Virus record (IMG/VR): IMGVR_UViG_3300037070_000444
Coordinates: 1 to 41,961 of that record
Source of the DNA: a virus
Reading direction: 5' to 3' (one strand)
Length of the DNA: 41,961 nucleotides
Shown here: piece by piece, positions 1-41,292 of the stretch
How positions within the stretch are numbered: position 1 is the stretch's first letter
Layout: each line of letters opens with the position of its first letter
Program-made: the position numbers and the translations under genes
Notes under the pieces: generated by a model
Database searches by the model: none
What the model saw: the letters and a program-made list of their open reading frames with translations, nothing else
Told to the model about the DNA's origin: nothing

Positions 1-327
1 GGAGTAGCCATCCGGCGTGTCCGGCCGCCCGAGCCTACCCCAGAATGCGGCCTTCTCTTCCGGCGGTGTCGCCTCGTTCGGAATGATGATCCCGCGGCCA
101 GCTTTGTCAGCGCCGAGCAGCCGCTCGAGTTCCGCGTAGGACTTCACCGCGGCAGCCTCGCTGTCCCATCCCTTGTTGAGCGCAATCGGCTTCAGGTCAT
201 CCGGTAACCGATCGGTCCACGCTGTGGCCGGTGCGCCTTCACCAGCACCAGCGCCGCCCGAACCTCCATCACCTGCCCCCGGTGCTCCGGGGTTGCCCGC
301 GCCTGCGGACCCTTCATCTGGTGGCAT
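1..327 (-). CDS. Capsid scaffolding protein, N-terminal part (continues at right end)
   Basis: This is the first 109 codons of a gene cut by the window edge. The start ATG at 327 follows a good ribosome site (AAGGAGA) just after the upstream gene ends at 348. The N-terminus is a low-complexity Gly/Ala/Pro linker of about 35 residues. An acidic helical segment follows, with a short PEEKAAFWGRLGRPDTPDGY stretch that is common in podovirus and siphovirus capsid assembly proteins. The frame rejoins exactly at the right end, giving a protein of 288 residues. It probably guides capsid assembly, from its place between the portal group and the capsid gene and its charged helical make-up. The last codon here (Ser) disagrees with the right-end copy (Lys), which suggests that the first three bases of the window are unreliable. 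Confidence 0.8.
   Translation of the reverse strand, partial: MPPDEGSAGAGNPGAPGAGDGGSGGAGAGEGAPATAWTDRLPDDLKPIALNKGWDSEAAAVKSYAELERLLGADKAGRGIIIPNEATPPEEKAAFWGRLGRPDTPDGYS
4..129. repeat. Terminal direct repeat, left copy
   Basis: These 126 bases are identical to 41836-41961. The three bases before each copy differ (GGA at 1-3, CTT at 41833-41835). The repeat lies inside the scaffold gene, and joining the two ends across it gives one open frame. It is either the overlap left when a circular or circularly permuted genome was assembled, or part of a true terminal repeat. The short length near a typical assembly k-mer favours the assembly explanation. Confidence 0.95.
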
Positions 328-1145: not shown

Positions 1146-1444
1146 CAGCCAGGCTCATCATCCGCGCGACTCTGGTACATCCGCTGCAGACCTATTAGGT
1201 CCGCATCACTCGTATCCAGATGCTCGCCGAACCGGCGGAACACCTCGAGGCGACCGATCGAGAGCAGCGTAGCGTGCGTGTCTATACCGTTCGGCCCGGT
1301 AACCGCGGGCGACTCGAGCACACGGCAGAACTCGCCCAGGTCCAGCATGACGACCTGAGCGTCGGGCGTGAGCTTCCCGTCGTTGTCGAGGAACAGGCGC
1401 CGGTATGCGTTGCGACGCTGCTGGATGCGTTCGTACTGGTTCAT
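1145..1444 (-). CDS. Bbp19-domain phage protein
   Basis: A 99-residue protein resembling the Bbp19 family, named from Bordetella phage BPP-1. It opens with a basic helix (YERIQQRRNAYRRLF). The motif around LTPDAQVVMLDLGEFCRV follows, then a segment with LSIGRLEVFRRF, which gives the family its recognisable pattern. These proteins sit beside portal and scaffold genes in many podoviruses and are thought to be virion or assembly factors of unknown action. Here it begins just after the portal stop (overlap at 1444) and ends at the start of the fibre-like gene, so it is translated as part of the head operon. Identity as a Bbp19-type protein is fairly secure; its molecular job is not known. Confidence 0.75.
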   Translation of the reverse strand: MNQYERIQQRRNAYRRLFLDNDGKLTPDAQVVMLDLGEFCRVLESPAVTGPNGIDTHATLLSIGRLEVFRRFGEHLDTSDADLIGLQRMYQSRADDEPG

Positions 1445-3090
1445 CAGTGATACAGCGGAACCGCCGGCACCCCCTGCGACCCGAGTTGTTGCGTCTCCGC
1501 GAGCGTCTTGGCGGTCTGCGCGGCTATCGGAGCGGCAGCGAGCATGTTCTGCAGTTGTACCTGTTGAGCGTCGTCCTTGAGAATTTCATCGACCTCTTCC
1601 GGCGTCCTGATGATCTTCGACGGAACGCCCTGAATTTCGGCGAGCATTCGGACTGCCTCGTGCATGTCAACGACCTTCGTAACGGATGGATCGACCTGAG
1701 CGAACACGCCAAGAGTCTCTGCGGTTCGCAGGATTGCAACGCCCTCCTCCGAGCGCTGGAGCCGGTTCAACGGCGATACGTACTCGATCTCAATCGTCCC
1801 GCCCGCCTCGATCAACTCTCGCGGTATCGGTGGAATCAGACCGGCATGACCACACAGATCGATATCGCGCTCGATCTGCGGTCCGAGTAATTCGGACTGC
1901 TGCCGACCCATCGTCGGCGCGATCAGCGCCCCCTTCTCCTGAGCCCTGAGCAGCGCCTCGGTCGCGGTGATCTGCGGAGAATCGACGAGGATCTGGAACA
2001 GCGTCACTAGGAAGTGGTCGTTGATCAGTTTCCGCTTACCATCGGTAATCTCGATGCCGAGGCCAATGTCGCCCTTGATCTCGGCCTGCATCGCCAGCGG
2101 CCGACCTTCCGCGGTCATGCCGCCGTAGTTCATCGCGTTAGGTCGCGACGCGAACGCCTGCAGCGAGTCCTTGTGCAGCAGCCACGGCGGATCAACCTTC
2201 TTGTGCGCGGCGCGCAGGATGGTCTTCTCCATCTCGTTCAGCATCTTGATATCGGGCAGCGCGAGCATCGCTGGCGAGCGGCCGTAGCTCTCGCCAGGCG
2301 CCGTGATCCCGCGACCGATCGAGTACGGCATCGTTCGGTAGCCGCCCTCGTCAACGGTCGCCTTCTCATCGACGCACACGTAGTAGCTCGAGTACTTCAT
2401 CCCGCGGTATGACCGATCGCGCGGGTTTGCCTCCTCGTTCGGCTTCACGCAATGCAGGAACGTGAACAGCTTCGGATCGCCCTCGTCGCCAGCCTTGACG
2501 ACCTTCTCTGGGAGCGGACCCTGCGTGAACTTCTGCTGCGCCTGCTGCCCGGTGTACAGGAACTCGCGGTGCACCGTGTCGTGCATACCGTACTGGTCCT
2601 CCGCGAACCACGTGTCTGCGAACGCGCACGCCGTGTAGCGAATCCCGCGTCCGAGCATGTCGTTCGACATCGAGACACCAGTCCCGAACGCTCCGATCGA
2701 CATGTACGCCTCGTGCATGTGGCTCGCGTAGTTCGAGCGCGACGCGTACCGGACCTGAAACAGCAACTTCGTGAGCGCCTCAAGGAACCGCGCCACGGCC
2801 GGCCGAGCGTTCAGCTTTTCGTCACGGACCCTGAGCCGGTGCCACTGCGCGGTGCGCGGCGTGAGATACGACTCCATCGCCGCACCGTACCGCGACAGCG
2901 CGAGCGCGGCCGTCGAGTCGAACATCTTCTCGGTGCGCTTCTCGCCCTGCGTGCCAGGCTTGTGCGTGAACGTCGCATGGTCCGGCCACACCCGCTCGGC
3001 GATCTCCTGGCAATGAGAATCGAGGACAGACCTGTCAGCCTTCAACCGACCGTGACGCTTGATCAGATCCTCGGCGCGATCGTCCATCAC
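1444..3090 (-). CDS. Portal protein (podovirus head-tail connector)
   Basis: A 548-residue protein of the head-tail connector family that forms the dodecameric ring through which DNA enters and leaves the capsid. The N-terminus (LIKRHGRLKADR, then ERVWPDHATF) and the following segment with AAMESYLTPRTAQWHRL are typical of T7/BPP-1-type portals. So is the mid-protein motif with GRSPAMLALPDIKMLNEMEK, in the helix that lines the channel. The C-terminal 60 residues are Gln/Ala-rich helices that would form the crown. Length fits the family (500-600 residues). The start ATG overlaps the stop of the preceding gene by four bases (ATGA), so the two are translationally coupled. This is one of the best-supported calls in the window. 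Confidence 0.9.
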   Translation of the reverse strand: MMDDRAEDLIKRHGRLKADRSVLDSHCQEIAERVWPDHATFTHKPGTQGEKRTEKMFDSTAALALSRYGAAMESYLTPRTAQWHRLRVRDEKLNARPAVARFLEALTKLLFQVRYASRSNYASHMHEAYMSIGAFGTGVSMSNDMLGRGIRYTACAFADTWFAEDQYGMHDTVHREFLYTGQQAQQKFTQGPLPEKVVKAGDEGDPKLFTFLHCVKPNEEANPRDRSYRGMKYSSYYVCVDEKATVDEGGYRTMPYSIGRGITAPGESYGRSPAMLALPDIKMLNEMEKTILRAAHKKVDPPWLLHKDSLQAFASRPNAMNYGGMTAEGRPLAMQAEIKGDIGLGIEITDGKRKLINDHFLVTLFQILVDSPQITATEALLRAQEKGALIAPTMGRQQSELLGPQIERDIDLCGHAGLIPPIPRELIEAGGTIEIEYVSPLNRLQRSEEGVAILRTAETLGVFAQVDPSVTKVVDMHEAVRMLAEIQGVPSKIIRTPEEVDEILKDDAQQVQLQNMLAAAPIAAQTAKTLAETQQLGSQGVPAVPLYH

Positions 3091-4745
3091 CGAGCCCCCA
3101 TCTTGCCAAACCCACCCATCCCGCCGATTGCGCCAGAGCGGGATGCTAACTCGACCTGCGTCGTCGTGATGGTGACCTCGATATCAACGTGCACCAGCGT
3201 CCCGGTCGCGCGGACCGTGTACGGACCGTGCGTGCCGAGGACGGTGTGCGTGACATCGATGTCGCCGGTGTCTGGATCGAGCACGGCCCATACCGGCAGA
3301 TCATCCTCTTCGGTCCAATCCCATGACGTCAGCGACTCGGATACCTGCTGTCCAACGTGCAGCGTCACCACCGAGCCAAGGTTGCCGGATTCGTTGATTA
3401 CGCCGGAACCGATCCGCAATGGCTCATCGGCAGCGCGCACGAATGTCTGTAAAGCGTATGTCGACCACCCCTCGCCGTCGTTGTTGTTGATCGAGGCGAG
3501 CAAAGTGAACACCGGACCCGCCGCCTCGACAGCGGACACGGCGCCGTTATCGCGCACGGACGCATCACTGATGGGCAGCGCAGTATTCGCACCGCCCACG
3601 TCACCGATCAGCGTTTTATAACGGACCTGAGATCCGACATCGATGTCAGGCGTGCCGGAAATTCGGATACAGTTCGGTGACGGTGGGTTTACCGGCGGGG
3701 TCTCGGTGATTACCGCATACGCCACCTTCGTCGTGCCGCCGTTCCCGACTGCCGGGATCATAGCAATAGAAAAGTTGTCGTCGCTTGTGTCTGGAATGTT
3801 GTTTGATAGAACAACCGGATAACTGACGCCATACAGCAGAGTGCCGATTGTCGGTGTGAACGTCGTTGTCGTAGGCGTCGCCGAAACGATGGTCTGCGCC
3901 ACACCACCGATAGTCAGCGAGGTCGGGTCGATCCCGCCCACCTCGTGGTTCGTGCCGGTCAGTACCGCGTTCGTGCCCTCGATCAGTGTGGCGATGCTGC
4001 ACGATGCAATCGTCGGCCGCTCAAAGTCTGAATAAGGCGGGTTGATCGGAGCCGCCGCTAAATTCACGCCAGTCGCAGGAGCACCGCCGCTCGATGTGGC
4101 AACCATATCCGCCGAGCCGATCAAGTCGGCCAGGTCATCGACATCAGACAGCCGCCAGAAATGTAGTGCGGCCCCCTCCCAAATAGCGCCAGAGTCTGCG
4201 TTGATCGTGCGAGGGTCTGGAATCGACTCGGTGTCATCGAGTCCTAGTCTCGCCTTTAGTGCGAGCACATCGGCATTTGACAGTCCGGCAATGTTCCAAA
4301 TGGACACGCCGGCAATCCTTACGTCGGTGTTGGCTCCGACGTTGGTAGGTCTGCCGCCGATGCGAATGTAATCGAACGCCTGGTCCTGCACACGCGATGT
4401 CGTGCCAGTCGCTCCGAACGCGCCGTCGTTCGCGCCGGCTCTGGACGTGGACGAAACGAACTTGGCCGAGATTGCGTGCCATGCTTCCACAGACTTGTCG
4501 GCATCGTCCGATGTCGCCGTGCTGTTCGTCGTCCCGTCAGCTTCGCGAGCTTGGCCGAGCCCGGACACGTTCACGTTAAGCCCGCGATAGCGCACGTCAG
4601 AACCGCTAGCTTTACCTGCCGTACATACCCCAACGTTCCGATGCGTGCTTGCCCAAATCCAAGCGTGGAACAGGAGTACGCCAGTATCCAGTCCGCTCGT
4701 GAGCGAAGCAGATAGGTAACCTGGGTTGCTGCAAACGACACTCAC
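3087..4745 (-). CDS. LamG/Ig-like virion or tail-associated protein
   Basis: A 552-residue protein that looks assembled from beta-sandwich domains. Residues about 1-185 resemble a concanavalin/LamG fold: a stretch with WHAISAKFVSSTSRA, then YIRIGGRP and the segment VRIAGVSIWNIAGLSNADV, which is a common ending of LamG domains. Residues about 240-340 resemble an IPT/TIG or Ig-like domain (TIEG..AVLTGTN, LTIGGVAQTIVSATPTTTTF). The C-terminal third is a cadherin/Ig-like beta region ending in a Gly/Met-rich tail. No catalytic motif was seen. It lies between the pectate-lyase-like gene and the portal, with four-base overlaps on both sides. It is probably a virion surface or glycan-binding protein; this is inference. 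Confidence 0.6.
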   Translation of the reverse strand: MSVVCSNPGYLSASLTSGLDTGVLLFHAWIWASTHRNVGVCTAGKASGSDVRYRGLNVNVSGLGQAREADGTTNSTATSDDADKSVEAWHAISAKFVSSTSRAGANDGAFGATGTTSRVQDQAFDYIRIGGRPTNVGANTDVRIAGVSIWNIAGLSNADVLALKARLGLDDTESIPDPRTINADSGAIWEGAALHFWRLSDVDDLADLIGSADMVATSSGGAPATGVNLAAAPINPPYSDFERPTIASCSIATLIEGTNAVLTGTNHEVGGIDPTSLTIGGVAQTIVSATPTTTTFTPTIGTLLYGVSYPVVLSNNIPDTSDDNFSIAMIPAVGNGGTTKVAYAVITETPPVNPPSPNCIRISGTPDIDVGSQVRYKTLIGDVGGANTALPISDASVRDNGAVSAVEAAGPVFTLLASINNNDGEGWSTYALQTFVRAADEPLRIGSGVINESGNLGSVVTLHVGQQVSESLTSWDWTEEDDLPVWAVLDPDTGDIDVTHTVLGTHGPYTVRATGTLVHVDIEVTITTTQVELASRSGAIGGMGGFGKMGAR

Positions 4746-6682
4746 GGATCAGGCCAGTATGGGTGTGGCTCGGGATGCGTCAACGGCGGGTTTACAGTGG
4801 TATCGGTACCAGGGCCGCTAAAGAAATCGCCATCGCGGTCCGACACATTGTCGATGATTCGAGCGGTAACTGCATCGCGCACACCTCCAACAGTGGCGCC
4901 AGCATGCCCAAGCACGTAATCCTCCGCGGATTCCGCCGTCATGAGGTCAGCGGAAGGAATCGAGAACGAACCCGTGGTCTCCTCATGCACCGTCGAACTG
5001 TAGAGGCTATTTGCGCCGCCTTGAATCAGACCCCACAAACCATCACTCGCATCACTGTCCTCCCCCACATTGCCGGACTGATACACGCCAGCGGCACTAG
5101 TGGGGCCGAGCTCATGCCCGGTGGTCGGGCGGTAAATTTCATTCCGTTTGCTTTGCGGTCCCTTGCGGTACAGGTTATTCACGAGATTGACTTTGCGGAC
5201 CGTGCCGCTTGGAGCGTTCCAGTTGTTGTAGAGCACGTTGTTCACCACATCGATGTACTCAGGACGCACCATCCTAGGAACCCGGTCGCGATTGGTTGTT
5301 ATGAGGTTGCGGTACAAAGTGATCCGCCGCGGAGTCACTATCTCCAAGTCGTCCTGCACCCCGTCGTTATCTCGATCACCTAGCCCGTGAGCCACCCAAT
5401 CGCTGTCCTGCTGCGCGATGTTCATCCCCATCGCGTGACCGTTAGCAGCACTACCATCAGCATTGAAGGTAACGCCTTCTGGGTGCCGCGACAGCTTGAG
5501 CCCCTCACCGATGACGCAGTCAACGATCGTTATATCGTGGCAGTTGCTCAGGAACGACGGTCCGCCGATGTCCGGCCCCCAGATCATGTCGCAGTGGTCG
5601 AGATAGATGTTGTACACATCGCGCGGATCGCCGACCACCGGATATGTGAACGTGCTGGCTCCCGTCACAGTGATTCTAGCGGGGACGTTATATTCGGTTT
5701 GATTGGCCCCGGAGATCGTCACATCCTGGCCGGTAGACCACCCGTGAGCACTCCCCGTAGTAACCGTCGCCACGTTCGCTGCTCTGGTAATGCTGCTGAC
5801 AGCCTTGGAGCCGGGGTTTGCAACGATCGTCCCGGTCGCCGGCGACGCCGGCAAACTTTGGCGCGTCCCGTTGCACGAGAGCGCATCACGTTCATCGGCA
5901 GTGTTTCTGTCCTGGCCGGCGTCGTTTTCGTCGTTGTCGTCGTCGTTTTCTTCGTCACCCGGACGCATGGCGAGGTTGCGAATGATGATGTTGTGCTCGT
6001 CCACAATCTTCAGCATCCCGCGCTTCACGACGAGCAAGTGACCTGCGCCAGAAAGTCCGTCGTATGTCAGATCGGACTTAACGTCGATGTCCCGATCAAG
6101 ATCCACGGTTCCCGACAGTGTCGGCGTCACAATCCGCGCGTGAGCGTACTCCAGCGCATAGCGCAGCGAACCGGGATCGTCATCATCATCCAATCGGTTG
6201 ACTTCAATGGCGACGCCACCAAACCCTCCGGTCGTGTCCGCGCCATAGCCGTACATCACCGCAGGAGCCTCCACGGTAGCCACAGTCCATGTTCCAGACT
6301 GCCCGTGAGCCGTCCACGCGACCGTCACAGCGGTTCCATACGACTCGCTGGTCAGTTTGCGTAACTGAACCTTGTGGCCCTGCGTCGAGAGGTTGCTAAC
6401 TCCAGACACCGCCACGGTAGAGATCGGCTCATCATCGATCGGATCTATGACGACGTTGGGCACCTTGTTACCCACAACGCTCAACAGGTCCGATCGCCAG
6501 CCGGTGTTTACATCCTCGCCGACCCAATTTCCGCCAGGCAGGCGGACGCGGAACTCATCCCCGCCCGCGTAAAAATCGAACGGCGATATATCCGCCCATC
6601 GCCCTGGTTGTGAGTGCAACAACCCGTCCGCCGCCAGCGCCACCCCGTAGGTGTTCGCATCGCATACAGGAGCAGCACACAT
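4742..6682 (-). CDS. Pectate-lyase-like tailspike / polysaccharide lyase
   Basis: A 646-residue protein with the signature order of a parallel beta-helix pectate lyase (PL1-like): YGYGADTTGGFGG at the fold entry, PGSLRYALEYA, IIIRNLAMRPGD, a DALS motif, IYLDHCDMIWG, and later DRVPRMVRPEYIDVVNNVLYNNW. An Asp/Asn-rich run sits at about residues 243-265. An inserted Ig-like domain of about 75 residues splits the helix. A loop DRDNDGVQDDLE near residue 435 matches thrombospondin-3/EF-hand calcium loops. There is no signal peptide, so it should act on the virion as a depolymerase rather than as a secreted enzyme. Start and stop overlap the neighbours. True substrate (pectate, alginate, capsule) cannot be told. 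It could be a catalytically dead binding spike. Confidence 0.75.
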   Translation of the reverse strand: MCAAPVCDANTYGVALAADGLLHSQPGRWADISPFDFYAGGDEFRVRLPGGNWVGEDVNTGWRSDLLSVVGNKVPNVVIDPIDDEPISTVAVSGVSNLSTQGHKVQLRKLTSESYGTAVTVAWTAHGQSGTWTVATVEAPAVMYGYGADTTGGFGGVAIEVNRLDDDDDPGSLRYALEYAHARIVTPTLSGTVDLDRDIDVKSDLTYDGLSGAGHLLVVKRGMLKIVDEHNIIIRNLAMRPGDEENDDDNDENDAGQDRNTADERDALSCNGTRQSLPASPATGTIVANPGSKAVSSITRAANVATVTTGSAHGWSTGQDVTISGANQTEYNVPARITVTGASTFTYPVVGDPRDVYNIYLDHCDMIWGPDIGGPSFLSNCHDITIVDCVIGEGLKLSRHPEGVTFNADGSAANGHAMGMNIAQQDSDWVAHGLGDRDNDGVQDDLEIVTPRRITLYRNLITTNRDRVPRMVRPEYIDVVNNVLYNNWNAPSGTVRKVNLVNNLYRKGPQSKRNEIYRPTTGHELGPTSAAGVYQSGNVGEDSDASDGLWGLIQGGANSLYSSTVHEETTGSFSIPSADLMTAESAEDYVLGHAGATVGGVRDAVTARIIDNVSDRDGDFFSGPGTDTTVNPPLTHPEPHPYWPDP

Positions 6683-7497: not shown

Positions 7498-8934
7498 CTA
7501 CCCGAACATGCTGTAGTCCGACAAGGCCACCGTCTGGCGGGGTCCGAGTTGCGCCGCGCCAGGGAGCATCCCAGACGGTATGTGACGGCGACCGAGCGCC
7601 AGGTAGCGCATCGAGTCCGCATAGTCGGACGCCCAATCGTGGACAGGTTCATCGCGGAACGTCTTGCGGAGTTCGTCCCACTCACGGTGGTATTCCCGCA
7701 TCCCATCGATCCCGCGCGCCATGCGGTCGTTCGCAGCCTGCTGCGCGTCCTCGAGGTTCTTGGCCTCGGCGATCTCGTGCGGCCAGGGAGCCGGCGTCTT
7801 GTTGAACTCGATGTCCTGCAGCAGCGTCCGAACAGCCGCGATGCCCATCTCGCGCGATCCTCGCTGGTCGACCGACAGAACGTAGGGCTTTAGCCCGTAC
7901 TTCTGCGCCTGCTCCGGCCGGCTGCTCTCGTTGCCCCACTCGTGGATCCCGCCGTCCGGCGGCCAGATGTTGAACGGCATCACCCACCCGCGAGACAGGA
8001 TCGCCCGAGCGTAGTAGTCGAGACCGACACCCGAGCCCGACAGGACATCGATGATCCGGATCCGGCCGTTCTCGAGGACCTGGAAAAACCACACGACCGT
8101 CTGGTCGCCCTTGCCAATGTCCCACGCCGAGAACACCGGCAGGCCAGGCACGAACGGATAGTCGCCCACCCGGCCAGCCTTCTCGAGGCGGTCCATGAGC
8201 GCACCGTAGTACGAGCCAGGGATCGCAGCGTTCCAGTCGCAGTACCACTCCTGCGCGATCAGCGCGTCGGCCTCGGCATACCCACGCTCGGCCCGGAGCT
8301 CGCGCCGCTCGGTGTCGATGATGTCCATCGAGACGGCGCCGGTCTGCTCAACGGTCAGGTGCTGCGTGTGCCAGGTCGGATCGTTCTTCGCGTACTCGTA
8401 CATCCGAAAAAAGTGATTCCTACCCCGTGGCGTGCTGATAAACATCGCCCACCCGCCGTTTTCCGCGAGGATCGGCCGGATAAACGCCCATGCGTTCGGA
8501 TCAGCCTGAGAGTACTCGGAGAACACCACGCCGACCGGCGGCGAACCGATCGCAGCGCCGAAGTTATCCGACCCCAGAACCTGCCACGTCGAGGCGTTGT
8601 GGAACTGCAGGAACATGTCCTGAGACCGGGTCGATGCGCGCAGCCCATCAGGAAACGCGTCGTCGATCCGCGTCCGGCCGGTGTTCGGATTCACCGCATC
8701 CCAGATCGCCTTACGCGCCTGGTTCGCCTTCGGCAGCATGTGCCAGTACGTGCCGACACGCCGATGTGCACCGACAGCAGCAGCCGCGAGCGCGAACTCG
8801 TCCTTTCCCGCGCGACGGTGCCAAGGCTCGCAGAACCGCGTTACGCCACGTTCGAACGCGAGCCACGCCTCGAGCTGGTAGTGCCGCGGCTCCCACCCGC
8901 GGGCAGGAAGCTGGATCCGGAGTTCACGTGGCAT
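7498..8934 (-). CDS. terL: Terminase large subunit
   Basis: A 478-residue packaging motor: an ATPase that drives DNA into the capsid plus a nuclease that cuts the concatemer. In the ATPase half, a Walker A variant RRAGKD lies at residues 40-45. Walker B follows (VGVVFSEY, Glu 140), then the coupling motif STPRG at 167-171. The nuclease half has the acidic motifs AWDIGKGD (Asp 272) and IIDVLSG (Asp 296) and a third acidic cluster, DWASDYADSMRYLAL, near residue 440. Length and motif order fit the podovirus TerL group in which the P-loop begins RRAGKD. It overlaps the small subunit gene by 11 bases. The call is firm. Confidence 0.93.
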   Translation of the reverse strand: MPRELRIQLPARGWEPRHYQLEAWLAFERGVTRFCEPWHRRAGKDEFALAAAAVGAHRRVGTYWHMLPKANQARKAIWDAVNPNTGRTRIDDAFPDGLRASTRSQDMFLQFHNASTWQVLGSDNFGAAIGSPPVGVVFSEYSQADPNAWAFIRPILAENGGWAMFISTPRGRNHFFRMYEYAKNDPTWHTQHLTVEQTGAVSMDIIDTERRELRAERGYAEADALIAQEWYCDWNAAIPGSYYGALMDRLEKAGRVGDYPFVPGLPVFSAWDIGKGDQTVVWFFQVLENGRIRIIDVLSGSGVGLDYYARAILSRGWVMPFNIWPPDGGIHEWGNESSRPEQAQKYGLKPYVLSVDQRGSREMGIAAVRTLLQDIEFNKTPAPWPHEIAEAKNLEDAQQAANDRMARGIDGMREYHREWDELRKTFRDEPVHDWASDYADSMRYLALGRRHIPSGMLPGAAQLGPRQTVALSDYSMFG

Positions 8935-9334
8935 CGGCAGGCGGCCCGAACTGCCGAACCTCCACGATCACCGTGGTGGGCGCCTTCTCCGAGTCCTTGG
9001 TCCACGACTCCGGCGCCCGGTTCTCCAGCCAGTACTTCGACGCGGGCAGGTTCCCAGGCTTCGACGCCATGTCGAATACCGCCTTCGCGACCTGAGCGTG
9101 AGCACGCACCGTCGCCACCTCGATCTCGCGCGAGTAGTGCTCGCGGATCTGACCCGGCCGCAGGTCGAGCTCGATGGCGATCGCCTCCACAGTGAGCCCG
9201 AGCGCCGTCATCGCCTCGACCTTGCCAGCCACGAGCTCGTCACGCTTGTGCGGCAGGACGTGACCAGTCAGCGGATCGCGGCCAGCGTCGCCGACTGGCT
9301 CGCCCGTTGGAGGGACGAATCGCTCGGTCGTCAC
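8924..9334 (-). CDS. terS: Terminase small subunit (probable)
   Basis: A 136-residue protein directly upstream of, and overlapping, the large terminase gene. Residues about 35-70 form a helix-turn-helix-like region (KVEAMTALGLTVEAIAIELDLRPGQIREHYSREI), as in phage small terminases that recognise the packaging site. The middle has a segment with AKAVFDMASKPGN, AYW-type KYWLENRAPESWTKD, and the end is a Val/Pro-rich tail. These patterns recur in small terminase or TerS-like proteins of BPP-1-like and related phages. Its start ATG overlaps the sulfatase stop by four bases (ATGA), so the accessory sulfatase gene is embedded in the packaging operon. Assignment rests on place and fold pattern rather than on a diagnostic catalytic motif. 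Confidence 0.75.
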   Translation of the reverse strand: MTTERFVPPTGEPVGDAGRDPLTGHVLPHKRDELVAGKVEAMTALGLTVEAIAIELDLRPGQIREHYSREIEVATVRAHAQVAKAVFDMASKPGNLPASKYWLENRAPESWTKDSEKAPTTVIVEVRQFGPPADAT

Positions 9335-10782
9335 GGCGCAGTCCTCGCGCTTGCCAACACTGCGAGCAGCGCAGTCCGCATATCCGCAACCCGTCCGCTC
9401 TGGCCCGGTTCATTCACTCGGTTGACCGCCTCGCCCGGATCAGTCGATAGCTTGTACAGCCCCACAGGTTGCTCCGAAGCGTTGCAAACCAGCTTCCAAT
9501 CGCCCGATCGGTACGCGAAGTGATTCCCGCTGATCCCGCCCGGATGGAGTTTGTCTGGCGAGTCAGCCTCGAACACCATGGAGTCGCGGACAGAGGAAGC
9601 CTCGCCCAACAGGATCGGCATCAGGCTCACACTGTCGCGACCCTGACTTGATTCCGTGTTGGTCAGATCCTCGAGCGTGGCGTACAGGTCATGCACGCCA
9701 ACCAGCGCGTTGCTGACACCCGAGAGACGATCGCCCCAGCGCATGATCAGCGGGACTCGATGCCCGCCCTCGTAGATCGTCGCCTTGTATCCGCGCCAGT
9801 TGCCGTTAGGTTTGTGCCCGTACTGTCCGGGCTCGCCGTTATTCGCCGCGCCGTTGTCGCTGCTTACGATGATGATCGTGTCATCAGCGATGCCCTGCGC
9901 CTCCAACTCGCGAACGACGTAATCGACCGTAGCGTCGAGCTCGATCAATCTGTCAGCGCGCGGCGTCATGCCGGACTGTCCTGCGACCAAGCGATCCCCG
10001 ATGGCAACAGGCGGCTTGTGCGGAACGTGTACAGATGTTGCGCTCACGTGCAGGAAAAACGGTTGCTCTGCCGAGCGGATGAATGCGGCAGCCTCGTCAA
10101 CCAGCGTCTGCCCAGTTTCGCGAGTGTTCCACTCAGGAAGGCCGATCCCTGCCGTACCGATCTCCGTATCGCCGTAGTTGCCCTTATGCCATGTGATCCA
10201 GTCATCGGGATTCCCGACCAACTGACCATCACGGAAATACGCATACGGCGGTTGCTGAATTCCACCGACCAGCACGAGCGACGAGTCGATCCCATGAGCA
10301 GATGGACCGTCGATCAGCCCTCGCGACAAATCAACGCGATCGTCTGCCGTGCTCAACTTCGCGAACGAATTCCCCCCGCGGATATACACCCGCGAGCCAA
10401 GGTGCCACTTGCCCACGAATCCGGTTGTATACCCAGCATGGCGCAGCATGTCACCGAGCGTCTCTTGGCCAGGCAGCATCTGAGATCCCGCAACGTGGTT
10501 CCACACGCCCCACGGCTTCCTGCCGCGCCACTGGTAATTCCCCGTCATGATGCTGTAGCGCGACGGGGCGCACTTCGACGCGGTTACGTGCGCGTCTGTG
10601 AATCGCAGCCCTTCGGCTGCAAGCCGTTCGATAGCTGGCAACTCCACCTTGCCGGCAGGATTGTTCGGCCTTACGTCGCCCCAGCCAACATCATCGCCAA
10701 GGATCAGCACGACGTTCGGTGCGGCTGCGAGGCCGCACGGCGTCGCGAACAGCAGAACGCACACCACGAGACAACGCATCAT
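9331..10782 (-). CDS. Secreted arylsulfatase (formylglycine-dependent, type I)
   Basis: A 483-residue sulfatase with a hydrophobic signal peptide (residues 3-20, then AA-AP), so it should be exported. It would hydrolyse sulfate esters, probably on sulfated sugars. All usual type I active-site parts are visible: the metal-binding DD at 30-31, CAPSR with Cys 71 (the residue converted to formylglycine) followed by TG at 80-81, GKWHLG (Lys 125, His 127), VHVPH (His 252), DN at 309-310 and GYK (Lys 333) before EGGHRVP. Cys-type maturation needs a host formylglycine-generating enzyme or an anaerobic sulfatase-maturing enzyme. A GTG start at 10809 adds nine residues but overlaps the methyltransferase gene. 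Sampled rows are 53-58 % GC against 70 % in terL, which suggests a recent acquisition. A sulfatase is not a standard phage gene. Confidence 0.9.
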   Translation of the reverse strand: MMRCLVVCVLLFATPCGLAAAPNVVLILGDDVGWGDVRPNNPAGKVELPAIERLAAEGLRFTDAHVTASKCAPSRYSIMTGNYQWRGRKPWGVWNHVAGSQMLPGQETLGDMLRHAGYTTGFVGKWHLGSRVYIRGGNSFAKLSTADDRVDLSRGLIDGPSAHGIDSSLVLVGGIQQPPYAYFRDGQLVGNPDDWITWHKGNYGDTEIGTAGIGLPEWNTRETGQTLVDEAAAFIRSAEQPFFLHVSATSVHVPHKPPVAIGDRLVAGQSGMTPRADRLIELDATVDYVVRELEAQGIADDTIIIVSSDNGAANNGEPGQYGHKPNGNWRGYKATIYEGGHRVPLIMRWGDRLSGVSNALVGVHDLYATLEDLTNTESSQGRDSVSLMPILLGEASSVRDSMVFEADSPDKLHPGGISGNHFAYRSGDWKLVCNASEQPVGLYKLSTDPGEAVNRVNEPGQSGRVADMRTALLAVLASARTAP

Positions 10783-10786
10783 CAGA

Positions 10787-11824
10787 TCAGCCACGAACCA
10801 CCTCCGCACTCAGACCAGACCACCGCTCCCACCGCTCCACGATAACCGTCGCATACGCCGGATCGAGCTCCACCAGCCGAGCACGCATCCCGAGCCGGTC
10901 AGCCGCAATCAGCGTCGAACCCGAGCCGCCGAACGGATCTAGCACCGTGTCGCCCGCCCGTGCGTTGTGACGCAGCATGCGCTCGACCAGCGCAACGGGC
11001 TTCATCGTCGGATGATACTCGGAGCGCTTCGGCCGCGGCTCGCGCATCACGGACGGCACAAGTTCCTCGACAACAGCGGCGCCATCGATGATGAGCACAC
11101 GGTCCCCAAGCGTGACCTGCCATCGCCCGTCCTCCATGCGCTGGAACGGTGAGCCCTCGCCGAGATCCATGACCGTCGTCTGCTTGCGCCCGCCATACCA
11201 GCGGTGCCGAGCGCCAGGCTTCCACCCGTACAGGATGGGCTCGTGCTGCCACTGGTAGTCCGAACGACCGAGTACCAGCGCGTCCTTGCGCCAGACGATA
11301 CACCCCGACAGCTTGAATCCCGCGAGTTCGAACGCCACCCGGAACTGCAGCCCACCCGTGTCGGCATGCGCCACGTACACCGCACCGCCAGGCTGCAGCC
11401 ACTGGTGCATCGCGCGGAACGACGCCTCGAGGAACGCACCGAAGTCCACGTTCGCCATCGCGTCGTTCAGGATCGTCCCGGCCTTGCCCGAGTACGCCAC
11501 GTTGTACGGCGGATCGGTCCAGATCATGTGAGCCTGCGCCGAGCCGAGCACCTCCTCGAGCACGAGCGGGTCGGTGGCGTCGCCCACGATCAGCCGGTGA
11601 GGACCGAGCGCCCAGACCTCGCCGACCGCACACCGGACGTGCCCGAGCGGAGGCGCATCGTCCGGATCCCGCTCGTCGGTAGGCTTCGTGAGCGCACCGA
11701 TCTCGTCCAGCGTGAACCCAGCCAGCGACAGGTCGAACCCATCGGTCCGCAGCGCCTGGAGCTCGAGCACGAGCATGTCCATGTTCCAGCCGGCATCGAG
11801 CGCGATCCGATTGTCCGCCAGCAC
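10787..11824 (-). CDS. DNA adenine/cytosine-N4 methyltransferase, C-terminal part of a split ParB-methylase
   Basis: The methylase half of a ParB-domain/methyltransferase gene. It shows the catalytic motif DPPYNVAYSG early in the domain, an internal segment ending PILYGWKPGARHRWY, and near the C-terminus HPTMKP and the SAM-binding VLDPFGGSGSTLIAAD. This order is that of a beta-class N6-adenine or N4-cytosine methyltransferase. Phages use these to modify DNA against restriction or to time replication. The open frame continues upstream of this GTG as LVGLTPAQQRALVLADNR. That is the natural continuation of the ParB domain encoded in the next frame (11590-12078). One base appears to be missing near 11861, so this is probably one gene broken in this sequence. 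Confidence 0.85.
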   Translation of the reverse strand: MLADNRIALDAGWNMDMLVLELQALRTDGFDLSLAGFTLDEIGALTKPTDERDPDDAPPLGHVRCAVGEVWALGPHRLIVGDATDPLVLEEVLGSAQAHMIWTDPPYNVAYSGKAGTILNDAMANVDFGAFLEASFRAMHQWLQPGGAVYVAHADTGGLQFRVAFELAGFKLSGCIVWRKDALVLGRSDYQWQHEPILYGWKPGARHRWYGGRKQTTVMDLGEGSPFQRMEDGRWQVTLGDRVLIIDGAAVVEELVPSVMREPRPKRSEYHPTMKPVALVERMLRHNARAGDTVLDPFGGSGSTLIAADRLGMRARLVELDPAYATVIVERWERWSGLSAEVVRG

Positions 11825-12078
11825 CAGAGCCCGCTGCTGCGCCGGCGTGAGCCCGACCAGTTGATCGTCGGGACCTGCTCGAGCTTCAGCCGCGTAGCAG
11901 CAGCCAGGCGGCCGTGACCAGCGATAACCGTGCCGTCCTCGCCGAGCAGGATCGGATTCGTGAACCCGAACTCAGTGATCGAGCGGGCGATGGTCTCGAC
12001 CTGGGCGACCGAGTGCGTGCGTGCGTTGCCGGCGTAGGGCGTCAGGCTCGAGGGCGCGCGGTATTCAATCGTAAGCAT
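11590..12078 (-). CDS. ParB-like N-terminal domain of methyltransferase (frameshifted)
   Basis: The first 73 residues form a ParB/sulfiredoxin-like nuclease domain: LTPYAGNARTHSVAQVETIA, FTNPILLGEDGTVIAGHGR and AATRLKLEQVPTIN. In phages this domain often leads a DPPY-type DNA methylase in one protein. After VPTIN (about 11861) the frame runs into unrelated low-complexity Arg/Ser sequence until 11590. The expected continuation (LVGLTPAQQR) is present in the other frame. The real protein was therefore probably about 430 residues, from 12078 to 10787. The missing base would restore AACCTGG from AACTGG. No slippery heptamer was seen, so programmed frameshifting is unlikely. Confidence 0.7.
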   Translation of the reverse strand: MLTIEYRAPSSLTPYAGNARTHSVAQVETIARSITEFGFTNPILLGEDGTVIAGHGRLAAATRLKLEQVPTINWSGSRRRSSGLWCWRTIGSRSMPAGTWTCSCSSSRRCGPMGSTCRWLGSRWTRSVRSRSLPTSGIRTMRLRSGTSGVRSARSGRSVLTG

Positions 12079-20571: not shown

Positions 20572-20792
20572 TGGCTATGACGGATGACGAGATTCTGGCG
20601 CTGTGGCGCGCACCATACGACGACGGTGGCTCACTCAACGTATGCACCTTCGCCCGCGCCATCGCCGACCGTGCAGCAGAGGATGAGCGGGAGGCGTGTG
20701 CGAGGGTGGCTGCCACATACGGAACTGGAACATACGTAGGCGGCCATATCGCCGAGTTGATCCGCGCTCGTGGCACTGAGGGTCCAGCATGA
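20568..20792 (+). CDS. Hypothetical small helical early protein
   Basis: A 74-residue, mostly helical protein (DDEILALWRAPY, then CTFARAIADRAAEDEREACAR and HIAELIRARGTEG). It follows the previous gene with a four-base overlap. Its last codons (ARGTEG) are the first copy of an 18-bp sequence that is repeated after the next gene, which marks this gene's end as a recombination junction. The pattern is typical of small phage proteins of unknown function. Confidence 0.55.
   Translation: MMAMTDDEILALWRAPYDDGGSLNVCTFARAIADRAAEDEREACARVAATYGTGTYVGGHIAELIRARGTEGPA
20765..20782 (+). repeat. 18-bp direct repeat, left copy
   Basis: CGCTCGTGGCACTGAGGG lies at the end of the 74-residue gene and six bases before the PAPS-reductase-like ATG. 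An identical copy lies just after that gene (21588-21605). The pair brackets the gene exactly. Confidence 0.85.
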
Positions 20793-21586
20793 AGCACATC
20801 ATCAGTCTCGGCGCAGGAGTGCAGTCAAGCACAATGGCCCTCATGGCCGCACGCGGCGAGATCGGCCCGATGCCTGACTGCGCGATCTTCGCGGATACGC
20901 AGTGGGAGCCGAAGCGCGTGTACGAGTGGCTGGACTGGCTGGAGAAGCAACTGCCGTTTCCGGTGTACCGGATCAGTGTCGGCAACATCCGCGAGAGCAT
21001 CCTTGGAAATGCGGGTGACTCCGATGCGCGGGTCGCGAGCGTGCCGTACTTCGTCGCTGGCGGCGGACTGCTGATGCGCCAATGCACTAGTGAGTACAAG
21101 ATTCAGCCAATTCTTAGGAAGATTCGCGAACTGATCGGGCTCAAGCCGCGCCAGCGAGGGCCGGCGACCCCTGTTGTGTCGCAGTGGATCGGTATCTCGT
21201 TCGATGAAATGCAACGCATGAAGGCGAGCCGGGTCCGCTACATCGAGAACATATTCCCCCTGATCGACGCGCGCATGAGCCGCCACGACTGCCTGCGCTG
21301 GATGGAGCAACGGCAATATCCGATGCCGGAGAAATCCTCCTGCGTCGGCTGTCCATACCACGACAACGACCACTGGCGCGACATGCGCGACAACGATCCA
21401 GAGTCGTGGGCTGACGCGGTCGCGGTGGACGCTGCACTCCGGGCGACCGGGCCGCGCAGGGGAAAAAAGGAACTTGAGTACACACACCGCGATTTGGTCC
21501 CACTCTCGGAGGTCGATCTAACGACCCCGGCCGATCACGGGCAACTATCGTTTTTGGATGAGTGCGACGGGATGTGCGGGGTATGA
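20789..21586 (+). CDS. PAPS-reductase-like PP-loop protein
   Basis: A 265-residue protein of the phage branch of the phosphoadenosine-phosphosulfate reductase/adenine nucleotide alpha-hydrolase superfamily. It opens with a PP-loop variant (SLGAGVQSSTMALMA, residues 6-20), then CAIFADTQWEP and VYEWLDWLEKQLPFPVYRI. Near residues 184-190 it has the Cys pair SCVGCPYH, followed by DNDHWRDM. Members act in sulfate assimilation or, in phages, possibly in base or tRNA modification, so the substrate is uncertain. The gene is bracketed by an 18-bp direct repeat made from the end of its left neighbour, a sign that it was inserted as a cargo unit. The only other sulfur-related gene is the arylsulfatase. 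Confidence 0.8.
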   Translation: MKHIISLGAGVQSSTMALMAARGEIGPMPDCAIFADTQWEPKRVYEWLDWLEKQLPFPVYRISVGNIRESILGNAGDSDARVASVPYFVAGGGLLMRQCTSEYKIQPILRKIRELIGLKPRQRGPATPVVSQWIGISFDEMQRMKASRVRYIENIFPLIDARMSRHDCLRWMEQRQYPMPEKSSCVGCPYHDNDHWRDMRDNDPESWADAVAVDAALRATGPRRGKKELEYTHRDLVPLSEVDLTTPADHGQLSFLDECDGMCGV

Positions 21587-23652: not shown

Positions 23653-26097
23653 TCAGTACCGTGGAACGTACTTGACCGATGCGTAGTCGATCGTGATCGA
23701 ACTCGCCGCGTTCCCGACGTAAGCCCTGATCTCCAGCAGTCCGTTCCCGCTGATCGCCGCCGTGTCCGACGTGGTCGCCGCGCGTATCGTGTCGATCGCC
23801 GCGCCAACGGTCTGCCGAGTGACCGCCTTCCAAGTCGAGACCGTGATCAGGTTGATCACTCCGTCGATGCTCCACTCGTCGGCCAGCGTGCTGGTGAACG
23901 TCATGATCACGTCTCCATCCCAGAGCACATCGATGGTGTGGGCATCGGTCCCGGTGTTGACCCCGCCAGCCTTGATGAACAGCGCATCGCCCGCAGCGAA
24001 CGCAGCCGCAGCCACCGCACGGCTCACGAGCGAGTTACTCGACGCCGTCGCGACGATCGCCGTGGCGGACCCGTAGACCAGATTCATCGCCTCGACCTGC
24101 TCGCGCCCCGTGATCGTGTTCTGGCGAGAGTCCACGCCAGCCTGAGCCAGCGCGGTGAGCGCGCCGGACACAGCAGCCTCACCTGTCGGCAGACGGTTTC
24201 CAAGGAACCGAACCTGCGTCGCCGTCGAGTCCACGGTGATCGTGTCGGCGACCACATCGCGCAGGTCCACGTCGCGGAAGGTGATGTTCTTGCCGGGACC
24301 GATGTCGATCAGCTTGGCGCCGATGGTCGGGCAGATCACTTTGAGCCCGCGAACCTCGACGCCGAGTTCGTTTGCAGCAGCATCGGCCGTGAGCGAGAAC
24401 AGGTCGCCCGAAACGGACTTCAGTTTCCATGTCCCGCCTTGGATCAGGTTGTGTCCGAAGTCCATCCCCGAGACACCCTCGGCCAGAGGCTCGGCGTTCG
24501 AGACGGTGCAGCCGAACGCGATGGCTCCCATGTCCACGTCGCAGTTGATCACCTTGTTGTGGAGCGAACCCACCCCGAACTTCACCGCCAGCGCCGCGGT
24601 CGAGTCGAAGTACTTCCCGGTGCAGCCGAGCACGGTGTTGTGGTGCGCCCCCTCTGCGAACGTGAACACCCCGAGCGAGACAGCCGTTGTCGTGTCGGTC
24701 TGCTGGTGCGATTCGTTGTTGAGCACCATGCAGTCGTGAGAGAAGTACCCGAACTCCCACGAGCGCGAATCCACGTTGCCGCGGAAGTTGTCGAAGGTCG
24801 AATGCGCGGCCCCGTTCATACTCAGGATGTTGTTGCCGTACTCCTGAAAGCAGTCGCGCACGGTCAGATTTATAAACCCGCCATACCGCGACCAGGCATC
24901 GTTGAGCGAGCCGAACCGCGTCCCCTCGATCGTGACGTCGCGCACCATCTGCGGCGTGAAGTCGTTCCCGACGTGACCGAGGTTGTCAGCCGGACGCGAG
25001 ATCCGCATATTCGCGCAGGTCCGGTAGACCTTGTGGCGCAGCAGCACCTCGCCAGTCCCTGCATCGTGTCCTGCCGACACGTTGATCTGCTGATACGTGG
25101 GTTTGAAGTACCCGCCGCCCGTCGTGTAGCCGACAGAACTCCAGCAGTACAGAACCGTGCCTTCGGGATAGTTAGCGGCGTCCGCTGCCGTCGAACAGGT
25201 CACGCGGTCGTCATCCACCGTGACGTTGTCGAGCGCGTCGTAGCCGGCGTTGCTGTCCGTGAATCCGCCGTCGTCGTAGGTTCCGAGCACCAGGCACTGA
25301 CCAGACCCGCCGCTCGATGCCTCGTCGTTGAACACGAGCGGATTGCCGATGCCGATCATGTGCATTTCATCGCGGCCGATGATCGGCGTGGTCAGCCGGA
25401 TCAGGCCGGCATAGACCACGTACCCGGTCGAGTCGATCGCCGCCTGCATCGCCGCCGTGCTCGAGGCGACGCCAGTCGGATCGCCGCCGTACCTGCGGAA
25501 GTCGCCCGGCTGGTAGTAGTAGTACGTCGGCGTGACACCGGCCGCGATCTCGCCAGCGGTCCGCGGATACAGGTGCCCGCCGATCACCGAGCGCGACAGC
25601 GTGGTATCGCCGAGCGACTCGTAGAGCTCAGGATCGCCAGTCGTCTCGTCGAAGAAAAAGGCGTACTTGCCCTTGCGATTCTCGACGTCCAGCAACGTGT
25701 CCCAATCGACCGTGCCAGCCTCGCCGGCAGGGAACTGCATCGCCCGCCCCAACCGCGCGTCGAGTTGCAGGTCGATCAGCGTGCCGCGGTCGAACTCGCG
25801 CTCGAGCGTCTCGGCAGGGAATGAATCGTTGTTGATCCAGTCGGCCGGCTGCTCGATCGGCATGTCGAGTTGCACGACCACGTTCACGCCGGACGCAGGC
25901 GCCACGAGGAACGTGATCGAACCGCCCTCGTCCTCGTCCGCACCGTCCACCGTGTAGTGCGTGGTCAGCGTCTGCCGGGTCGCGTTGGAGTAGACCGCGA
26001 GATCGCTGTCCTCGAGGAACCGGAACGGCACCGGGAACTCGGTCGTGCTCCCGTCGCCAACGTACTCCGCGCGGACTTCGGTGGTGGATACGGTCAT
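23653..26097 (-). CDS. Tail fibre / tailspike with T7-type N-terminal domain
   Basis: An 814-residue tail protein for host recognition. Residues 1-150 follow the T7 fibre N-terminal pattern: TTEVRAEYVGDGSTTEFPVP, FRFLEDSDLAVYSN, then MPIEQPADWINNDSFPAETL and EREFDRGTLIDLQLDA. This domain fixes fibres to the tail. A pectate-lyase-like beta-helix starts with FRRYGGDPTGVASSTAAMQAAID (about residue 195) and runs on with many VRDCF-type rungs. The C-terminal 150 residues are beta-rich and may trimerise. The start at 26097 overlaps the previous stop (ATGA). The frame is open 291 codons further up, inside the ejection gene, and that part is a shadow. It could be a capsule depolymerase; active-site residues are not identifiable. 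Confidence 0.82.
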   Translation of the reverse strand: MTVSTTEVRAEYVGDGSTTEFPVPFRFLEDSDLAVYSNATRQTLTTHYTVDGADEDEGGSITFLVAPASGVNVVVQLDMPIEQPADWINNDSFPAETLEREFDRGTLIDLQLDARLGRAMQFPAGEAGTVDWDTLLDVENRKGKYAFFFDETTGDPELYESLGDTTLSRSVIGGHLYPRTAGEIAAGVTPTYYYYQPGDFRRYGGDPTGVASSTAAMQAAIDSTGYVVYAGLIRLTTPIIGRDEMHMIGIGNPLVFNDEASSGGSGQCLVLGTYDDGGFTDSNAGYDALDNVTVDDDRVTCSTAADAANYPEGTVLYCWSSVGYTTGGGYFKPTYQQINVSAGHDAGTGEVLLRHKVYRTCANMRISRPADNLGHVGNDFTPQMVRDVTIEGTRFGSLNDAWSRYGGFINLTVRDCFQEYGNNILSMNGAAHSTFDNFRGNVDSRSWEFGYFSHDCMVLNNESHQQTDTTTAVSLGVFTFAEGAHHNTVLGCTGKYFDSTAALAVKFGVGSLHNKVINCDVDMGAIAFGCTVSNAEPLAEGVSGMDFGHNLIQGGTWKLKSVSGDLFSLTADAAANELGVEVRGLKVICPTIGAKLIDIGPGKNITFRDVDLRDVVADTITVDSTATQVRFLGNRLPTGEAAVSGALTALAQAGVDSRQNTITGREQVEAMNLVYGSATAIVATASSNSLVSRAVAAAAFAAGDALFIKAGGVNTGTDAHTIDVLWDGDVIMTFTSTLADEWSIDGVINLITVSTWKAVTRQTVGAAIDTIRAATTSDTAAISGNGLLEIRAYVGNAASSITIDYASVKYVPRY

Positions 26098-40019: not shown

Positions 40020-40061
40020 GCTAGATTTCTCCTTGAATGGCGGTCAATGAAGGATCAGGGA

Positions 40062-40964
40062 TCAGGCCCGGTAGCTTTCCACCGCATAGACCTTGTTCTC
40101 TTCCAGACGCGTCGCACCTTGCGTGATGGTCTGGTAGATCTGCCACGGTAGGGACTGCAGGTCCTTCCGTTGCGACACGTCGGTCTGCATGTCCTGCCAC
40201 ACGCCCAGGTGCATGCCGGACTTGCACCACGCCGGCAGCGTGACCTCGTTGGTGCCCGCACACAGCGTCTCGATTAACTCGGACTGCAGAAAGTTGAATC
40301 CAAGAAACTCGCGAACCTTGCCCTTCTCGAGCACCGGCGATTCGCCGTTCTTGAAGTCGCGCGAGATGATCTGGATATCGGACAGCAGCGCGGAGTGGTC
40401 CTTCGCGGTGATCCCGATGTAGACCTCCTCCTCGTCGAAGTCCACGTACTGCGACTCCATGAGTTCGCGCAGCGCCTTGATCTTCTCGACGTTCAGCCGA
40501 CTGTTGGACCCGCCGACCGCGACGTCGATCTCGTTCCCAGCAGTGAACGCAGTCGATCCGGCACCAGCAACACCCGTTTTCGCCGAAGCGAAGAACGCCT
40601 GGATGATCAGCCGGTCGGACTGGCGACCCGCAGCCTTCACGCCGTTCTGGACGTAAGACGAGTTTGGGTTGCCAACAACGGACCGGAGAATGTCGAGGTT
40701 GTCGACCATCTGCGGCAGGTCGAAGGATCGCGGATGAACCCACCGACGAGCAGTCGGCGCATCCACACGGCCCATCGGCTGGAACCGGCCGGTGACTTCC
40801 TGCATTTCGACAGCGCCCATCTGGTTCACCGGCGCCGCGCCGTCGCCGACGTAGCTGGTATCCACGGTCACGGTCGATCGGAACTTTCCGCCCTGCAGTT
40901 GCAGGAGCATGACGAGGTTGGAGCGGTACTGCTTGGAGAAGAAAACGTTGTAGTTCTCGGACAC
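40062..40964 (-). CDS. Major capsid protein
   Basis: A 300-residue capsid protein beginning with GTG 40964 after a strong ribosome site (CAGGAGG, eight bases before). The sequence follows the podovirus capsid pattern: NVFFSKQYRSNLVMLLQLQG at the start, MGRVDAPTARRWVHP, DRLIIQAFFA, VEKIKALRELMESQYVDFDE, and a C-terminal segment with GMHLGVWQDMQTDVSQRKD. The fold is expected to be HK97-like. It is downstream of the scaffold gene across a long noncoding gap, and the cement-like gene follows. This is one of the firmest calls after the terminase and portal. Confidence 0.9.
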   Translation of the reverse strand: MSENYNVFFSKQYRSNLVMLLQLQGGKFRSTVTVDTSYVGDGAAPVNQMGAVEMQEVTGRFQPMGRVDAPTARRWVHPRSFDLPQMVDNLDILRSVVGNPNSSYVQNGVKAAGRQSDRLIIQAFFASAKTGVAGAGSTAFTAGNEIDVAVGGSNSRLNVEKIKALRELMESQYVDFDEEEVYIGITAKDHSALLSDIQIISRDFKNGESPVLEKGKVREFLGFNFLQSELIETLCAGTNEVTLPAWCKSGMHLGVWQDMQTDVSQRKDLQSLPWQIYQTITQGATRLEENKVYAVESYRA

Positions 40965-41292
40965 TTTGTGTGCCTCCTGAAAAATGACGTTGCATCTTTC
41001 GGAAGGCTTGTCCGCGAACGGGGCCGATCCTTCGTCGTTTACGCCCGACGCTAGCGGCGTTCTTTCACGCGGTCTAAGGGGCGCCGGAGCGCTTGTCCTA
41101 TTGAGAGCTCACCCGCGGTCGTCGTTGTCAGGAAGGGAGACTCCGACCGCGGGCTTGCCCGCGGATCAGAACGCTACTACTGAAGGACGTGTCAGCGCAA
41201 GCCTACGATTGGGTGCGGCCACCATGGGTCCGTGGCACTGCCGTGCACCGGAATCGTGGTCACGGGTTGCCATGGCGGCCGACATCGAACCG
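40965..41292 (-). other. Noncoding gap between scaffold and capsid genes
   Basis: This is the longest gap in the genome (328 bases). No convincing open frame was seen in it. It holds the capsid ribosome site near 40970, a set of nested hairpins (41112-41164) and no clear sigma-70 promoter on the leftward strand. A leader or attenuator that sets the ratio of capsid to scaffold would fit, but this is inference. Confidence 0.6.
41112..41164 (-). promoter_or_regulatory. Mutually exclusive hairpins before the capsid gene
   Basis: Three related arms occur. CCCGCGGTCG (41112-41121) pairs perfectly with CGACCGCGGG (41144-41153) over ten bases. That second arm overlaps CCGCGGGC (41147-41154), which instead pairs with GCCCGCGG (41157-41164) over eight bases with a two-base loop. 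The two structures cannot form together, like an attenuator or RNA switch. No T-run follows, so a simple terminator is less likely. Confidence 0.55.

Follow-up and report, generated by a model that had tools for sequence, protein, structure and literature searches.

A predicted exported S1 sulfatase encoded in the packaging operon of a T7-like podovirus

Introduction

Sulfation is a main barrier to the breakdown of polysaccharides from algae, mucins and bacteria, and the sulfatases that remove it are usually deemed a bacterial monopoly. S1 Cys-type sulfatases require a formylglycine-generating enzyme (FGE). The closest described systems to the protein studied here are the carbohydrate sulfatases of subfamily S1_15 that Bacteroides and marine bacteria possess, among them PDB 7oze (BT1624), 6s20, 7p26 (BT4631) and the lambda-carrageenan galactose-6-sulfate sulfatases 9bas/9bau. 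On the phage side, tailspike depolymerases are likewise phage enzymes that act on bacterial surface polysaccharide. FGE homologues encoded by Pseudoalteromonas phages have been reported (PMC10232697), and the open-access literature, which was covered in part, yielded no account of arylsulfatases as auxiliary genes of phages.

Here we analyzed a sulfatase gene in a viral stretch of DNA of 41,961 nucleotides, the whole of which is referred to as the window. The original prediction, made from the letters of the window, was of a phage-encoded and exported arylsulfatase inside a packaging operon. The core of it stands, with a Cys-type S1 sulfatase, encoded by a phage and predicted to be exported, located in a genuine packaging operon.

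Results

The product of an open reading frame on the minus strand at 9331..10782 (ATG at 10782, stop codon at 9331-9333, 483 amino acids) matched the Pfam Sulfatase family PF00884 over residues 22-375 with 143 bits (E=1.4e-41; cut-off, 25). The motifs C71-A-P-S-R, DDVGWGD, GKWHLG, VHVPH, SSDNG and GYK were all found where they had been predicted. Alignment with 15 bacterial relatives showed that residues D30, D31, C71, R75, K125, H127, H252, D309, N310 and K333 were invariant, and that the phage protein kept 51 of the 52 columns invariant in the bacteria, at an identity of 33-40%. We take the established roles of these residues in the S1 family to be those of nucleophile (C71, within CAPSR), metal ligands (D30, D31, D309, N310) and sulfate contacts (R75, K125, H127, H252, K333). 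The AlphaFold model (pTM 0.84, mean pLDDT 74.7; loops 86-99, 130-149 and 193-221 poorly predicted) matched PDB sulfatases in a fold search with E-values down to 1.7e-31. Thus, the C/S-x-P-S/A-R signature of S1 formylglycine sulfatases, their metal ligands and sulfate contacts and their alkaline-phosphatase-like fold were all present, and the identity of the protein as an S1 Cys-type sulfatase with complete catalytic and metal residues appears near certain. Within PHROGs it belongs to phrog_19870, an unnamed family which takes in other phage sulfatases too.

The N-terminus MMRCLVVCVLLFATPCGLAAA (10720..10782, minus strand) was judged by its sequence to be a Sec-type signal peptide, with a maximum hydropathy over 11 residues of 2.99 in the h-region. 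No other gene among the 28 window genes tested reached 2.2, which agrees with the signal peptide that had been proposed together with the type I sulfatase domain and its full catalytic motifs. The protein consists of the predicted signal peptide and the sulfatase domain only. In this it differs from tailspike depolymerases, since it has no tail-attachment domain and would remove sulfate instead of cutting chains. An alkaline phosphatase or a phosphonate hydrolase without the Cys site, the alternative raised by the original prediction, was rejected: the PehA and Mn-arylsulfatase models scored far under their cut-offs, carbohydrate sulfatases of S1_15 headed the structure lists, and the protein retains the Cys site.

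By phmmer, profile and fold alike, the solved structures nearest to the protein were S1_15 sulfatases, some of which had been crystallised with galactose-6-sulfate. The phage protein shares with them the fold and the S1 active site, and differs from them in sequence (26-27% identity) and in being encoded by a phage within a packaging operon, whereas they are bacterial. Because these structures are the nearest ones, 6-O-sulfated galactose or GalNAc is our leading guess for the substrate, and not a result. Regarding maturation, no FGE family match was found in the phage genome, so that maturation of Cys 71 would have to come from the host, as had been anticipated. All 12 bacterial genomes carrying the closest relatives did match the FGE family, in one of them (G263) at no more than 0.4 kb from the sulfatase; since this family, PF03781, also includes proteins other than FGE, these matches are supportive only.

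The sulfatase gene lies between a DNA (N6/N4) methyltransferase gene (10787..11824, minus strand; PF01555, E=1.6e-26; phrog_498, E=1e-109), its upstream neighbour, and the gene of the small terminase subunit, terS (8924..9334, minus strand). The latter assignment (phrog_309, E=8e-9) seems real but weak. The gene of the large subunit, terL, was found at 7498..8934 on the same strand (phrog_2, E=7e-18; 30-44% identity to IMG/VR relatives). Reading of the junctions confirmed this arrangement as well as the proposed four-base overlap, the sulfatase stop and terS sharing exactly 4 bp (9331-9334, GTGA). At the other end, the junction with the methyltransferase gene amounts to at most 4 nt when ATG 10782 is taken as the start. 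A GTG at 10794, located within the end of the methyltransferase gene and preceded by a Shine-Dalgarno sequence GGAGG six nucleotides upstream (10783..10804, minus strand), may be a better start than ATG 10782. It would add MADL to the protein and overlap the methyltransferase stop by 8 bp. The sulfatase gene is tightly coupled to both of its neighbours. We also observed that a ParB-N domain (11590-12078) and the methyltransferase, both on the minus strand, lie in different frames, and that phrog_498 homologues have them fused. The frame break, which was identical in both contigs that carry it, corresponds to a frameshift or a split gene.

The GC content of the sulfatase gene was 61.4% (GC3 71.9%) versus 65.2% (GC3 82.7%) in terL, and the values of 53-58% against 70% on which the original prediction had built were wrong. 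Its codon use was the fourth lowest of 17 genes, near that of the genes at 348-1145, 3087-4745 and 4742-6682. The strongest codon outlier tested was a 324-amino acid open reading frame at 40021-40995 (minus strand; GC3 0.39) with no family match, which may be a false open reading frame; a capsid gene would be expected in this region.

A direct terminal repeat of 126 bp was present at 4..129 and again at 41836-41961, and another IMG/VR contig (3300037071_000963), 100% identical over 18.4 kb, spans the joined ends as well as the junctions of the sulfatase locus. Given the end repeats and this second contig crossing the joined ends, we consider the genome to be complete and circularly assembled. 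Its hallmark genes encode a T7-type portal, tail tubular and tail proteins, internal virion proteins, a tail-fibre N-terminus, the terminases, a VapE-like protein, a helicase and a VRR-NUC nuclease. The portal, or head-tail connector, is a podovirus marker (1444..3090, minus strand; phrog_332, E=8e-132) with at most 52% identity to other viral contigs, and the tail fibre gene lies at 23653-26970. Matches of portal, tail tubular and internal virion proteins to phrog_332, 394, 376, 418 and 1640 assign the virus to the T7-like podoviruses. No integrase was recognised among the window proteins scanned. The sulfatase was absent from nine out of nine terL relatives in IMG/VR, as far as sequence is present in those contigs, and no sulfatase was found around the portal relatives in the stretches where sequence is available. 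Since cousins by portal or terL do without a sulfatase, at least in the sequence available for them, the gene would be dispensable in this group. One of the cousins (L039) came from a rice-paddy metagenome, which says little on the host.

Relatives of the sulfatase were sought in about 690 bacterial genomes, nearly all from Verrucomicrobiota and Planctomycetota, and by scanning about 85,000 species genomes, one for each species, with a sequence pattern, which returned 24 loci. The best matches were Verrucomicrobiota and Planctomycetota proteins with 35-43% identity over the aligned stretches, and no relative closer than about 41% was found in the genomes of mainly these two phyla or in the pattern scan. 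The tree grouped the phage protein with 14 rows from Verrucomicrobiota and 2 from Planctomycetota, a 17-row set with an SH-aLRT support of 100, and gave it a branch length of 1.08 changes per site. Secreted sulfatases of the two phyla (L157, L129, L130, L128) share with it this tree set, signal-like N-termini and all the catalytic residues; they differ from it in sequence (35-40% identity over the alignment), in the long branch of the phage protein and in being encoded by bacterial genomes. Two features of auxiliary metabolic genes are present: the gene is of cellular origin, nested among bacterial sulfatases, and it is encoded by a podovirus genome with its hallmarks and end repeats. As judged from these comparisons, the acquisition is either old or fast-evolving, and would stem from a pool of sulfatases of the Verrucomicrobiota/Planctomycetota type. 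The donor phylum is provisional, as the best among the phyla sampled, mainly these two. The tree proposed for tracing the donor thus placed the gene among sulfatases of these phyla and revealed no recent donor. A polysaccharide-degrading donor, also proposed, agrees with the nearest relatives belonging to polysaccharide-degrading phyla. A recent gain of the gene was not supported, given the small difference in composition, the coupling to neighbouring genes and the lack of a close relative in the genomes searched.

The motif Y-x-T-x3-G-K-W-H-L was present in 48 contigs when 2.9 million from IMG/VR were scanned. Of these contigs, 43 encode sulfatase-like proteins, and many may be bacterial or proviral flanks. 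Terminase family matches, some of them weak, were detected in 7 of 26 sulfatase contigs examined. Sulfatases predicted to be exported, as judged by hydropathy alone, were found immediately after the genes for the major head protein and the connector (L228), behind those for a head protein and a tail sheath in a contig whose end cuts the sulfatase gene (L237), downstream of terL in a phage with a primase and part of a methyltransferase as well (L207), and near helicase and primase genes (L188). In five T4-like contigs (L206, L210, L217, L230, L248), a sulfatase without signal peptide lies between portal and head protease, with pairwise dN/dS values of about 0.1-0.25 that indicate purifying selection. 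All these proteins, including those of L234 (listed with L188) and L222, resemble ours in being S1 sulfatases of phage genomes, several of them exported and several beside structural or packaging genes. They are not close kin (L188 is about 27% identical), and the two phage proteins placed in the tree do not group. Phage sulfatases are therefore rare and not unique: the statement that such genes are not usually known from phages is true of reference phages and not of IMG/VR, where several other true phages carry one. Two further loci were observed. In the phage contig L189 (30-506), just upstream of terS/terL-like genes, the N-terminal part of a sulfatase is joined to an unrelated tail and represents a decayed gene or a chimera. 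In L225 (7471-11078), a sulfatase predicted to be exported precedes a short protein of membrane type and a lipoprotein-like open reading frame, neither with a PHROG match, which perhaps form a lysis cassette.

Sulfatases annotated in reference phages were discarded as precedents, since all three records opened contain bacterial DNA at the sulfatase locus (L190, MG065691; L191, MT835799; L192, CAKLQH020000010). They comprise an Acinetobacter contig, a bacterial region in the unverified record of Campylobacter phage A11a, and MT835799 ('Bacteriophage sp.'), a polysaccharide locus that contains a transposase and no fewer than five sulfatase genes. Significant matches in BFVD were confined to giant viruses and comprised sulfatases (Yasminevirus, Satyrvirus, Terrestrivirus, Tetraselmis virus 1) and one mimivirus phosphodiesterase. 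These viral sulfatases resemble ours in their S1-type fold, and differ in the eukaryotic hosts of their viruses, in TM-scores of 0.46-0.64 by query length and in an identity of 14-17%.

Within the same genome, a gene at 4742..6682 (minus strand) encodes a pectate-lyase-like protein without signal peptide that is a possible partner enzyme. Its match to the pectate lyase 9buj (E=5.7e-12) spans only about 100 residues, and VexL (6fi2) was matched with E=3e-4. This gene had a low GC3 and a codon use as atypical as that of the sulfatase, it had no Pfam match, and its sole relative found in IMG/VR was the identical contig. On the plus strand, opposite to the sulfatase, the gene at 20789-21586 resembles PAPS reductase (phrog_424, E=1e-49). 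As a sulfur-assimilation partner it was rejected, because it scored 11.9 bits in Pfam PAPS reductase against a cut-off of 22.5 and the ECGxH motif of CysH is missing; it probably encodes another N-type ATP pyrophosphatase-like enzyme.

Discussion

The sequence itself shows to which family the enzyme belongs, that its active site is complete, that it has a signal peptide, that its gene is coupled to the packaging operon and that the phage lacks a maturase. From these features we infer, with an assurance that falls somewhat short of probable, a late-expressed, host-matured and exported carbohydrate sulfatase that would desulfate host or matrix polysaccharide and aid the release and spread of the phage. 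An S1_15-like sulfatase would have been captured in ancient times by a T7-like podovirus and become part of its late packaging operon, where it would be translated late, together with the terminase. The FGE of the host would oxidise Cys71 to formylglycine in the cytoplasm, Sec would export the enzyme to the periplasm or to the outside, and 6-O-sulfate would be removed there from galactose- or GalNAc-type residues of a sulfated polysaccharide on or around the host. The matrix would thereby be loosened, perhaps with the pectate-lyase-like protein acting on the same material, and progeny would be released and spread without sticking to debris. That exported sulfatases adjoin late genes in unrelated phages is the best indication of a role late in infection and in release. 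A second carbohydrate-active candidate in the same genome could also speak for it, and against it is the fact that a sulfatase alone cannot depolymerise a polysaccharide.

Export, late position and the removal of a single group would fit equally well an enzyme that alters a sulfated surface glycan to which the phage itself binds, so that debris no longer traps progeny and rival phages are shut out, in the manner of a neuraminidase or of serotype conversion. This explanation, compatible with the same data as a role in release, is unlikely in our view; serotype conversion of a surviving cell, in particular, is hard to reconcile with a genome in which no lysogeny module was recognised. Freed sulfate might instead be imported and assimilated into sulfur amino acids for virions, as in an auxiliary metabolic gene for sulfur supply. 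The phrog_424 match at 20789-21586 would favour it, but that gene falls under the Pfam cut-off and is without ECGxH, a position in the packaging operon is late for feeding metabolism, and sulfate is seldom limiting in most habitats, so that we consider sulfur supply improbable and weaker than an aid to release.

Cousin phages without a relative of the gene and a mildly atypical codon use, on the other hand, are what would be expected from hitch-hiking bacterial cargo without present function. The conservation of nearly every family-invariant residue despite low overall identity, reading frames coupled with those of the neighbours and the purifying selection on the sulfatase of another, T4-like phage group all argue against such a passenger, to which we give little credence. 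Assembly chimera or bacterial contamination, suggested by the fate of the three reference records, is very improbable here: the terS junction overlaps, the methyltransferase junction amounts to at most 4 nt, and the window closes into a circle. The identity of the second contig across both sulfatase junctions is strong evidence, yet the assemblies may share samples and are not fully independent. A chimera, which the original prediction had named as the finding that would undo it, is thus ruled out at the assembly level, as far as the assemblies allow.

Extending an aid to release beyond this phage, exported S1 sulfatases might be recurrent and overlooked late phage genes, captured independently by unrelated lineages that infect bacteria coated with sulfated polysaccharide, and might serve as matrix- or receptor-desulfating release enzymes like the receptor-destroying enzymes of viruses; we put this forward as a rather doubtful possibility. 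If true, an exported phage sulfatase matured by the formylglycine system of its host would tie phage lysis to carbohydrate desulfation, and the hosts of such phages would be predicted to have both sulfated surface or matrix glycans and FGE. Clean examples like the present phage make the question testable, because no phage precedent was found in the literature covered and several database entries proved to be contaminated.

Not all phage sulfatases would act outside the cell, since those of the T4-like group have no signal peptide. In one member of that group (L206), a sulfotransferase gene lies near the sulfatase. In another IMG/VR contig of 150 kb (L222), a sulfatase also without signal peptide is located amid a run of sulfotransferase and glycan-type genes.
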